A DNA stretch of 64,000 nucleotides from the NCBI RefSeq assembly GCF_003795145.1, contig NZ_CP027786.1, positions 372,001 to 436,000 on the forward strand, given 5' to 3'. Shown here one piece after another: positions 24,885-26,881 of this stretch (position 1 is its first letter; every line of letters begins with the position of its first letter). A program made the translations under genes and the position numbers. Source of the stretch: Tetragenococcus koreensis. Its GTDB lineage: Bacteria; Bacillota; Bacilli; Lactobacillales; Enterococcaceae. The notes beneath the pieces were generated by a model. It saw nothing but the letters and a program-made list of their open reading frames with translations. It searched no databases and was not told where the DNA came from.

Positions 24885-24913
24885 TTGACCTGTTATTTCG
24901 AATCAGGTATGAT
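24885..24913 (+). promoter_or_regulatory. Sigma-A promoter of the trp leader
   Basis: TTGACC, 17 bases, TATGAT, starting only eight bases after the preceding gene's stop. Confidence 0.8.
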
Positions 24914-24946
24914 AATCACAATTATTAAACAAGGAGGAGAGCCATT

Positions 24947-25012
24947 ATGCAAATATCTTACGCAAACAATGTTGTACAATCTTGGCAAAACTGGCGTAGT
25001 ATGTTGTATTGA
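24947..25012 (+). CDS. Trp-rich leader peptide of an attenuator
   Basis: An ATG behind AAGGAGGAG starts a 21-codon peptide ending at TGA 25010-25012. Codons 13 and 16 are both TGG (24983-24985 and 24992-24994), in the segment SWQNWRS. Tryptophan is otherwise rare in short random peptides. The strong ribosome binding site, tight link to the promoter, and mutually exclusive hairpins downstream mark it as the sensing peptide of a ribosome-mediated attenuator for trpX. The peptide itself probably has no other role. Confidence 0.85.
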   Translation: MQISYANNVVQSWQNWRSMLY

Positions 25013-25133
25013 TGGATCTCATTTATCCATAGATACAACGATTTAGACGAGCACTCTAAAACTTTGTATCTATGCCGGACAAAATCAATCTTATGGCCGC
25101 ATAGATCAGTCATCTATGCGGTTTTTGTTTTTT
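25003..25133 (+). promoter_or_regulatory. Ribosome-mediated tryptophan attenuator
   Basis: Five pairing segments can be traced. Segment 0 (25003-25017) pairs with 25025-25039: GTTGTAT/ATACAAC and ATGGAT/ATCCAT. Segment 1 (25028-25038, CATAGATACAA) pairs perfectly with segment 2 (25064-25074). Segment 2 (25068-25075, ATCTATGC) pairs with segment 3 (25099-25106). Segment 3 with flank (25097-25106) pairs with segment 4 (25112-25121) to make the terminator. A ribosome stalled at the Trp codons would leave segment 0 free, tying up segment 1 and letting 2:3 form (read-through); one reaching the stop would cover segment 0, letting 1:2 and then 3:4 form (termination). Confidence 0.8.
25097..25133 (+). 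terminator. Attenuator terminator
   Basis: CCGCATAGAT pairs perfectly with ATCTATGCGG around CAGTC and is followed by TTTTTGTTTTTT. A weaker hairpin with a T run follows at 25134-25160. Confidence 0.9.
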
Positions 25134-25243
25134 AGCAATGATCGCAGGATTGTTGCTTTTTTTGTATAGTGAAAATAAGCAAGCAAAGCGATCGTAGTGC
25201 CTTTCATTTCTAGTTTTTTAAATAAAGAAAGTGAGGAATAAGG

Positions 25244-26248
25244 ATGAAAAACAAAGGGTTGATATTAAGTGTTGGCGTCGTACTTATGATACTAGTTGGT
25301 AGTGTATTTGCTTTTGAGTTAGGAAAAAGAAATACAGGGAGTGCGCAAACAGAAGAAATGCAAACGGTAGGTATTTTACAATACGTTAGTCATCCTTCAT
25401 TAGATGATATACGCCAAGGCGTGGAAGATGGCCTGGCACGGTCAGGTTACAAAGAAGGCGAGAATATTGAGATTGAATTTCAAAATGCGCAAGGAGATCA
25501 AAGTAAACTAGCAACGATGAGTCAACAATTGATCGACGGCTCCCCAGATATCTTGGTGGGAATTGCAACACCAGCTGTTCAAAGCTTGGCAAATGAAACC
25601 AGCGACATCTCTATAATGTTAGGTGCTATTGCAGATCCAGTTGGTAACGGTTTGGTTGATTCGATGGAAGAACCAGGAGGAAATATGACCGGCGTTTCTA
25701 ATCAGGTGCCGATCGATCAGCAATTAGAGTTAGCTAAAAAACTTTTACCTGAAGCAAAACAAATGGGGATCCTTTACTCTTCTTCTGAAGATAATGCGAA
25801 ACCACAAGTTGCAGAAGCCGAAAAAGAAGCCAAAGAACAAAACTTTACGACAGAAAAATATGCCGTACCTTCATCAAATGAAATTCAACAAACGATCCAA
25901 GCAATGGACAATGTCGATTTTATATATATTCCCAATGATAATACAATGGCCAATGCGATGTCGACGATTGTTAATGAAGCAGATAAAAAAGATATCCCAA
26001 TCATCCCATCAGTTGATATTATGGTTGAAGAAGGCGGCGTCGCTACGGTGGGGATTGATCAACATGAATTAGGCGTAAAAACGGGCGAAATGACCGCTGA
26101 TATTCTTGATGGAGCAGATCCCGCTGAAACACCTGTCTATGTTTACAATGAAGGTGAAACCTATGTCAACCGAGAACAAATAGAAAAATACGACATTGAT
26201 TTACCTGAAACAATTGAAGAAGAGGCAGAATTTGTGGATGAGGAGTAG
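25244..26248 (+). CDS. trpX: Tryptophan ABC transporter substrate-binding protein
   Basis: The 334-residue protein belongs to the ABC_sub_bind (PF04392-like) family that includes TrpX. Residues 7-26 form an uncleaved or signal-type hydrophobic segment without a lipobox cysteine; ILQYVSHPSLDDIRQGVEDG near 45-64 and GVSNQVPIDQQLELAKKLLP near 153 are family stretches. It captures the ligand outside the cell. The Trp-codon attenuator upstream supports tryptophan as the ligand. The permease (trpY) and ATPase (trpZ) that normally follow are missing: a repeat region comes next. Either they lie elsewhere or have been lost. The C-terminus is very acidic. Confidence 0.85.
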   Translation: MKNKGLILSVGVVLMILVGSVFAFELGKRNTGSAQTEEMQTVGILQYVSHPSLDDIRQGVEDGLARSGYKEGENIEIEFQNAQGDQSKLATMSQQLIDGSPDILVGIATPAVQSLANETSDISIMLGAIADPVGNGLVDSMEEPGGNMTGVSNQVPIDQQLELAKKLLPEAKQMGILYSSSEDNAKPQVAEAEKEAKEQNFTTEKYAVPSSNEIQQTIQAMDNVDFIYIPNDNTMANAMSTIVNEADKKDIPIIPSVDIMVEEGGVATVGIDQHELGVKTGEMTADILDGADPAETPVYVYNEGETYVNREQIEKYDIDLPETIEEEAEFVDEE

Positions 26249-26329
26249 AGGAAATATTTGTGTTACAGCTTCCGAGGTTATTTAGATGGAAACTTATTAC
26301 TGAAAATTGTTACGTGGACAGGCTAGACG

Positions 26330-26770
26330 AAAGTGAAGCGCATAAGAGTGACAAAACTATGTGCTAAAAAGAAAATAAGCACGTAAGAACGGTAAACTAG
26401 TGGGGTTAACCGAAGCTAAGCACGTAAGAATGGCAAAGCTATGAGCTTAAATGAAGAAAAGGAACGAAAAAAGTTGATTTAAGCTAAATTAAGCACGTAA
26501 GAAGGTAAAAATAGTGTGCTAAAAAAGAAACAAGCTCATAAGAACCACAAAACAGTGGGGTTAAATTAAGCTAAGCACGTTAAATTAGCAAAGCTATGAG
26601 CTTAAATGAAGAAAAGGAACGAAAAAAGTTGATTTAAGCTAGATTAAGCGCATAAGAATGCCAAAACAGTGTGGAAAAAAAGAAATAAGCTCATAAAAAT
26701 GACAAATTAGTGAGGTTAAATCAGGCTAGGCACGTTATTTTGTCAAAATTATGAGCTTAATTGGAGATAA
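26330..26770. repeat. Dispersed TAAGCAC-family repeat cluster
   Basis: This gene-free region has a composite unit of about 155 bp: TAAGCACGTAAGAATGGCAA at 26418 recurs, diverged, at 26573, each followed by the same TATGAGCTTAAATGAAGAAA stretch; a partial unit precedes them. Short elements alternate between TAAGCAC...GTGCTTA and TAAGCTC...GAGCTTA forms, which keep pairing ability. The family recurs at 42047-42280 and, inverted, at 2560-2860. No coding or promoter signal is evident in 26249-26881. Confidence 0.85.
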
Positions 26771-26881
26771 GAAACAGTTAAAGTTCCATTGAAATGCTAA
26801 TAAGTTATTTGCGAATAAGATGTTTCGAAATTCCTTACTGTGCAAACATTTGACAGTTATAATTTCCCCCGAAATCTGATA

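Follow-up and report, generated by a model that had tools for sequence, protein, structure and literature searches.

Background

The trp attenuator of Escherichia coli consists of four segments, and a ribosome at the stop codon of its leader peptide blocks segment 2 directly. T-boxes bind tRNA directly, without a ribosome. In Bacillus subtilis transcription is uncoupled, i.e., the ribosomes do not keep up with RNA polymerase. Going by its title, one paper (PMC5794164) deals with a leucine-rich attenuator peptide of Staphylococcus aureus, an amino-acid-rich leader in a Firmicute. For His genes in Firmicutes, leader-peptide attenuators are predicted in passages of Naville and Gautheret 2010 (PMC2965389) and likewise of Ashniev et al. 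2022 (PMC9413887). Attenuation by leader peptides is thus in itself nothing new for Firmicutes, and the view of the original prediction, that this kind of control is typical of Proteobacteria, needs correcting.

The closest described RNA is the trpB motif, which is already in Rfam as RF04312. According to the passages on this motif in Narunsky et al. 2024 (PMC11109978) it is a strong riboswitch candidate (SRC-39-1), has over 900 members across Firmicutes and Fusobacteria and mostly lies before an ABC transporter resembling those for amino acids, and the same passages allow a classic attenuator as a possibility. The phrase "leader peptide" is absent from the main text of that paper, and among open-licence PMC papers we found none that links the trpB motif to a leader peptide.

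Here we report on the leader of trpX in a 64,000-nucleotide stretch of Tetragenococcus koreensis DNA (contig NZ_CP027786.1, positions 372,001 to 436,000; this whole stretch is referred to as the window). The leader is very probably a ribosome-mediated transcription attenuator that senses the supply of Trp-tRNA. We also consider it likely that RF04312 is not a riboswitch but forms the Trp branch of a superfamily of modular attenuators in Bacillota, a ribosome-read counterpart of the T-box, in which a six-segment chassis serves Trp, Tyr, Phe, His and Leu, segment 2 acts as an anti-sensor that co-evolves with the sensor codons, and the RNA would be ON only with a ribosome within an interval of approximately 15 nt and OFF if the ribosome is missing or fast. 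The literature passages cited mention neither a leader ORF for RF04312 nor segments 0 and A, nor a single scaffold that serves at least five amino acids.

Methods

The trpX upstream regions of the family (taken to be Enterococcaceae) were complemented with a sample of 134 RF04312 matches beyond these regions. The loci read were among the matches listed (for the order, down to E 1.4e-4) and some of them are near-copies, e.g. L259 and L260 of one genome. A single-sequence scan of the genome contigs gave three loci, of which L005 and L006 were left out. Alignment and folding were done on 134 leaders from all groups, obtained by thinning a set of 228 by similarity. Each leader was folded up to segment 3 with the ribosome-covered RNA hidden, and 13 nt were assumed to be covered from the A-site.

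The NCBIfam HMMs were run on 20 of the 121 genes behind the leaders, many of them partial and below the curated cut-offs, and the remaining genes were assigned through BLAST against TrpX or, by eye, from the start of the protein. For the Clostridia a model of our own was built from 38 leaders and run on 147 genomes of an order taken to be clostridial; the genes found there were named by sequence signature and six fragments by HMM, one of which gave no match.

Results and discussion

The leader of trpX and its six segments

The promoter, the ribosome binding site and the 21-codon ORF with its two TGG codons are present where the original prediction had placed them, and the gene that follows is trpX as judged by NF041285 (Table 1). 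The two TGG codons had been described as four positions apart; both are there, but the spacing is three codon positions. Promoter-like sites across the region as a whole are not above chance (16 versus 14.1 expected), and among relatives a promoter site with at least 9 of 12 matches precedes the leader in 104 of 107 cases, compared with 10% of shuffles, the median distance from the end of the -10 box to the leader start codon being 32 nt.

Table 1. Features of the trpX leader locus; positions are those of the window
Feature	Position	Strand	Basis
Sigma-70-type promoter, TTGACC-17-TATGAT	24885-24913	+	10/12 consensus matches
Shine-Dalgarno sequence of the leader ORF, AAGGAGG	24931-24937	+	Sequence
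Leader ORF, 21 codons, peptide MQISYANNVVQSWQNWRSMLY, stop TGA 25010-25012	24947-25012	+	W..W leader in relatives
Sensor codons TGG CAA AAC TGG	24983-24994	+	Trp codons 24983-24985 and 24992-24994 (codons 13 and 16)
Segment A, final codons of the leader ORF, possible partner segment 2 (25066-25078)	24991-25002	+	Duplex -14.8 kcal/mol
Segment 0, overlaps stop codon, predicted partner segment 1	25003-25017	+	Alignment and duplex energies
Segment 1, predicted partner 0 (ON) or 2 (OFF)	25025-25039	+	Alignment and duplex energies
Segment 2, predicted partner 1, A or 3	25064-25078	+	Alignment and duplex energies
Segment 3, predicted partner 2 (antiterminator) or 4 (terminator)	25095-25106	+	Stem, alignment, duplex energies
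Segment 4 and U-tract of intrinsic terminator	25112-25133	+	12-pair stem 25095-25123
Second, tandem terminator hairpin (25134-25157) with U-tract	25134-25164	+	
Match to Rfam RF04312 "trpB motif", under gathering score	25026-25133	+	53.5 bits, cut-off 59, E 6e-7
trpX, tryptophan ABC transporter substrate-binding protein, predicted regulated gene	25244-26248	+	NF041285, 440 bits, cut-off 390

By duplex energy the proposed pairings 0:1 (-16.1), 1:2 (-13.2), 2:3 (-13.2) and 3:4 (-17.7 kcal/mol) all form in the window, the last being the terminator, and segment 0 lies over the leader stop codon as had been claimed. Moreover, the leader is more stable on folding than 200 of 200 shuffles (z -5.1). 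The antiterminator 2:3 and the terminator 3:4 share segment 3 and are thus mutually exclusive, and a second terminator within 75 nt is found in 58 of 100 family leaders compared with 0.8 expected. The five-segment logic drawn up for this locus stands, but it overlooked a sixth segment, A, in which the last leader codons pair with segment 2; the role of A in the window itself is the part of the scheme of which we are least certain.

In common with the E. coli trp attenuator (summarised in PMC8546594) the leader carries Trp codons, a stalled ribosome would free the antiterminator, and a ribosome at the stop codon would lead to the terminator; the window segments A, 2, 3 and 4 correspond to the E. 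coli segments 1, 2, 3 and 4. The window differs in having the extra segments 0 and 1, and a ribosome at the stop codon covers 0 and not 2, with a mask that ends about 40 nt before segment 2. The number of segments is six rather than four, and an inserted 0/1 relay sets the leader apart from the textbook design, in keeping with the expectation that it would depart from E. coli.

Relationship to RF04312

At the standard threshold no Rfam family reaches its cut-off in the window. At relaxed thresholds RF04312 (the "trpB ncRNA motif") aligns to segments 1-4 with a score below the cut-off for membership (Table 1), and on account of the shared position, leader and alignment we refer to the window leader as homologous to RF04312 rather than as passing it. 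The first hairpin of the motif corresponds to 1:2 and its terminator to 3:4, while its antiterminator lies in the right arm of P1. Since the RF04312 model starts at segment 1, it is without the leader ORF, segment 0 and A:2. A T-box riboswitch was considered as well, and no Rfam T-box match at cut-off was found in the window.

With E 0.001 as limit, RF04312 was detected in at least 104 of 105 genomes of the family (over cut-off in at least 42 of 105) and in at least 160 of 295 genomes of the order. In the wider sets, 15 of 299 class genomes and 5 of 398 phylum genomes gave a match, two of the latter five looking false. Lactococcus lactis also has an RF04312 match, which scores under the cut-off.

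Conservation upstream of trpX in the family

TrpX matches are present in at least 103 of the 105 family genomes. The parts of the leader, their conservation and the fit between codons and genes are shown by sequence comparison. Of 111 trpX upstream regions, 107 contain a short ORF whose two TGG codons are spaced by three codon positions (W..W), and this number stays at 107 when a Shine-Dalgarno sequence is required. The corresponding control, 20 rounds of dinucleotide shuffling, gave on average 0.35 such ORFs (maximum 2), and the reverse strand gave one. The TGG codons, whose lack of conservation had been named at the outset as a refuting result, are conserved. No leader was found in four of the 111 regions (L112, L113, L009 and L089): both L112 and L113 represent a second trpX copy shortly after another one, and in L089 the stretch starts too late to include the ORF start and is partly masked. 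For L009 (G097:C1, approximately 227.6-229.3 kb), leader and trpX are separated by intervening DNA that may be a mobile element, and the RF04312 match is 1.7 kb upstream of trpX.

The first TGG of the window is positioned 20 nt before segment 0, with a range of 20-23 among 55 aligned Trp leaders of the family. Measured to segment 0, the median offset of the first sensor codon falls between 20 and 22 nt for each Trp group (range 18-24), whereas the stop codon drifts from -13 to +10 relative to segment 0; the distance that is kept is thus that between sensor codon and segment 0. A plain conserved terminator before trpX, accompanied by a chance or unrelated short ORF and with no Trp regulation, would account for the terminator, which is a strong element by itself. 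It is, however, at odds with the excess of W..W leaders over shuffles, with a sensor distance that is kept as the stop codon shifts, and with leader codons that fit the genes, and we give this reading practically no weight.

Most leader peptides outside Tetragenococcus end in W(Q/R)xWRR-stop. Following the second TGG, 95 of the 107 leaders use CGT and 88 use AGA, and this mixed choice of Arg codons speaks for a constraint at the RNA level; the A:2 pairing would explain why the CGT-AGA codons are nearly constant. The frequent WRR-stop in Enterococcaceae could also be taken to indicate an arrest peptide, modelled on the type represented by TnaC, in which nascent WxxWRR would act as a sensor of free Trp and keep the ribosome on the stop codon, with segment 0 covered and the gene off, and in our folding a ribosome held at the stop codon does yield OFF. 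Yet the codon-level constraint explained by A:2, N-terminal residues that vary, leaders of other families that end in WQSR, WQSQDR or RSLYR, and the existence of Tyr, Phe, His and Leu versions all argue against such a peptide, which we therefore regard as very improbable compared with attenuation through Trp-tRNA supply.

Pairing tests across leaders

Among the 134 aligned leaders the fraction of paired cells was 85% for A:2, 89% for 0:1, 98% for 1:2, 87% for 2:3 and 94% for 3:4. All five helices scored above each of the 200 controls with shuffled 3' letters, a shuffling that ignores relatedness, and were far above slid versions, the margin being small for 2:3 (86.8 versus at most 85.7). Within subsets the result differs by helix: A:2 and 2:3 were not above the best of 200 shuffles for the Enterococcaceae Trp leaders alone, nor were A:2 and 3:4 for the 17 Tyr/Phe/His leaders alone, and these helices are conserved rather than covarying within those subsets.

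We also exchanged partners between groups. For A:2 the mean energy was -15.1 with the leader's own partner, -11.1 with partners from other groups and -7.0 with shuffled partners, and a control stretch shifted upstream showed no partner preference (-6.8, -6.8 and -7.0). The own partner was better than the swap mean in 121 of 134 leaders for A:2, 113 of 134 for 1:2, 105 of 134 for 2:3, 121 of 125 for 0:1 and 128 of 132 for 3:4, where 125 and 132 are the numbers of leaders with available 0:1 and 3:4 energies. For Clostridia the A:2 values were -14.8 (own), -11.1 (swap) and -5.6 (shuffled), and the own partner was better in 44 of 49. Segment 2 varies with the sensor: it carries C(C/U)GG opposite the UGG codons in the family of the window, AUGGCUAA opposite Tyr/Phe codons, and AUGGUGG or AUGAUGG opposite His codons.

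Predicted effect of ribosome position

The ribosome-position logic is a computed one, with folding treated as an equilibrium and with kinetics, pausing and the RNA upstream of the ribosome ignored, and under these terms the share of segment 2 that is paired in 2:3 averaged, over the 134 leaders, 0.75 and 0.67 with the ribosome at the first and last sensor codon, compared with 0.21 both at the stop codon and without a ribosome. At the better of the stalled positions the 2:3 share exceeded that at the stop codon in 131 of 134 leaders, that without a ribosome in 130 and both in 127, which in computed folding makes the position of the ribosome decisive; seven of the 134 fail at least one of the two inequalities. 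Little 2:3 was predicted on stalling for a His leader (L148, 0.01) and a Tyr leader (L233, 0.18). The values for the window are 0.90 and 0.88 (first and last sensor codon), 0.03 (stop) and 0.06 (no ribosome).

Without a ribosome, segment 2 is held on average by segment 1 (0.38) and by A (0.21). In the window it is held by segment 1 (0.64) and not at all by A, while in the leader copy before trpXYZ of the same genome (L002) A holds it at 0.51. The A:2 state is thus populated in relatives and absent from the no-ribosome fold of the window, and it is clearest in the relatives.

When the position of the ribosome front was scanned in 45 leaders (one counted twice), 2:3 was high with the first free nucleotide at -12 to +3 from segment 0 (means 0.56-0.78), low on either side, and up again at +24 (mean 0.54), by which point segment 1 itself lies under the ribosome. 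If 13 nt are taken as covered from the A-site, the high range corresponds to A-site codons between -25 and -10; the TGG codons of the window, at -20 and -11 from segment 0, are within this range. In the scan of L002 the 2:3 share stays at 0.70-0.84 for fronts well upstream, and for the full leader without a ribosome it is 0.05.

These data suggest the following course of events, in which stalling, termination and the response to Trp in the cell are what we infer. When Trp is scarce, the ribosome would wait at the TGG codons, cover A and leave segment 0 free, 0:1 would form, and segment 2 would be released into the 2:3 antiterminator such that trpX is transcribed. When Trp is plentiful, a ribosome at the stop codon would cover segment 0, leading to 1:2 and the terminator 3:4. 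In a leader without a ribosome, 1:2 (and in some relatives also A:2) would hold segment 2 and again favour the terminator; the computed holder in the window is 1:2. Segments 0 and 1 may hence represent an inserted relay that carries the state of the stop-codon ribosome to segment 2, and the same scaffold could read other amino acids once the sensor codons and segment 2 change. The central proposal of the original prediction, that stalling at Trp codons frees segment 0 and gives read-through, is in this way supported by conservation, computed folding and the fit of codons to genes.

Leader codons and the genes that follow

A leader frame is present in 123 of the 134 further RF04312 matches, 101 of these being Trp, 21 Tyr/Phe and one His leaders (L228 was missed by the search pattern and added by eye), and wherever the next gene was recognised the codons of the 123 leaders fit it. 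The Trp leaders precede a TrpX-type binding protein (88) or trpB (10), and the remaining ones an intron-maturase-like ORF (one, by eye) or no called ORF (two). The number of TGG codons is at least two in groups f1, f3, f6 and f8, one in f2 and f9, and one to two in f4. An open W..W frame without an ATG, GTG or TTG start was noted in L193.

The Tyr/Phe leaders, e.g. QLNNYYFSYFR, stand before shikimate-pathway genes of the aroC/aroE/aroB type in Enterococcaceae (15), before substrate-binding proteins (five) and before a sodium-dependent (NSS) transporter (one), while the single His leader (HHHH, n=1) stands before hisZ. The 20 genes analysed with NCBIfam comprised aroC (2), aroE (4), aroB (3, weak), trpB (5), hisZ (1), a sodium-dependent transporter (1) and TrpX-type proteins (4). 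Three Enterococcaceae genes behind Tyr/Phe leaders (L239, L241 and L248) are aroB-like at 57-61 bits on partial sequences (cut-off 305) and would encode either a divergent dehydroquinate synthase or another enzyme. All four Tyr/Phe-leader binding proteins that were run fell below the TrpX cut-off, with 269 and 384 versus 390 for the two of full length. In a quick tree of binding proteins, one branch (support 96) splits the 98 Trp-leader rows from the five Tyr/Phe-leader rows.

Eleven RF04312 matches (L202, L251, L252, L254-L258, L154, L159 and L160) were judged likely to be false because they are without the AUAGAUAC/GUAUCUAU core (by reading) and without a fitting leader; they were kept in n=134 and excluded from the gene table, the alignment and the folding.

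Amino-acid variants in a clostridial family

Our own model gave 52 matches in 31 of the 147 genomes, and all 31 genomes belong to one family. One match is the already known L158 and the other 51 were read: a leader was called in 49 of these (13 Phe, 6 Tyr, 18 mixed Tyr/Phe, 8 Leu and 4 His) and none in the truncated matches L314 and L316. All eight Leu leaders precede one type of sodium-dependent (NSS) transporter, and the His leaders precede hisS (three) or hisZ (one). These and the other His members may overlap the published Firmicute attenuators with His-run leader peptides before his genes of Gram-positives, to which they are likened here by description (passages of PMC9413887 and PMC2965389).

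The 37 Phe/Tyr leaders are followed by NSS transporters (29), ABC permeases (five), BrnQ-like carriers (two) and an unassigned gene (one). In a quick tree of 37 NSS proteins, labelled by residue counts as 14 Tyr, 13 Phe, 8 Leu and 2 mixed, the leader labels require three changes, which is the minimum and was reached by none of 200 shuffles. A trpXYZ-like permease (by eye) is the first long ORF in L279, L290, L292, L295, L300 and L316; these permeases follow Phe-type leaders such as VVFNSQFR (L316 being without a called leader), and since the HMM search with an 86-residue permease fragment gave no family, "ABC permease" refers to TrpY likeness by eye. The BrnQ family is named for branched-chain amino acids; the two BrnQ-like carriers (L263 and L266) are behind the Tyr/Phe leaders YYFSYFS and YYFSYYS, which hints at an aromatic substrate. 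Behind the Tyr/Phe leader IYFEFSYFS (L285) no recognised gene was found in the stretch read.

Taken over the three sets, a short leader ORF with fitting codons was found in 107/111, 123/134 and 49/51 places, and this bears on a riboswitch, i.e., an RNA that binds free tryptophan or another ligand with no need of a ribosome. Its status as a published strong candidate (SRC-39-1, in passages of PMC11109978) and the strong hairpins, with terminator and antiterminator, speak in favour of a riboswitch. A riboswitch does not, however, account for the leader ORFs, nor for one RNA layout that serves Trp, Tyr, Phe, His and Leu genes with altered sensor codons and segment 2, and we infer that no separate aptamer domain is visible once the alternative stems are assigned; the chance that this reading is correct appears to us to be slight, and attenuation read by the ribosome is preferred.

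Implications for RF04312 and for transport

If ribosome-mediated attenuation is correct, the orphan motif RF04312, with its more than 900 published members (passages of PMC11109978), gains a mechanism, and the leader codons predict the signal of each member. The resemblance to T-boxes is considerable, i.e., one scaffold for many amino acids, specificity set by codons and the same kinds of genes in Firmicutes; the T-box differs in that it needs no ribosome, whereas the window leader would be read by one. Substrates are suggested for uncharacterised transporters, namely the Tyr/Phe clade of binding proteins next to TrpX and the Tyr, Phe and Leu clades of sodium-dependent transporters, on the basis of leaders and similarity. 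The findings also bear on the coupling of ribosome and RNA polymerase in Firmicutes: uncoupling would seem to disfavour such control, and yet this control appears to be common both across the order of the window and within a clostridial family.

trpX and its genomic setting

In the window trpX is alone, with neither trpY nor trpZ beside it and the next long ORFs on the opposite strand. The genome carries trpXYZ elsewhere (L002) with its own copy of the whole leader (peptide MQNVRVIKPTQTWQSWCKTLY), and the TrpX encoded there is 61% identical to that of the window; the lone trpX keeps an attenuator-like leader of its own. A third TrpX paralogue (40% identical, at C1:198946) is without a leader and groups with the Tyr/Phe-leader side in the quick tree of binding proteins. 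The T. halophilus subsp. flandriensis TrpX is 88% identical to that of the window, and the leader peptide there is MQITYANNTVQLWQNWRSMLY. Finally, imperfect direct repeats around aagcacgtaagaa and gaaaaggaacgaaaaaagttgatttaagct were seen by eye after trpX, at 26300-26780.
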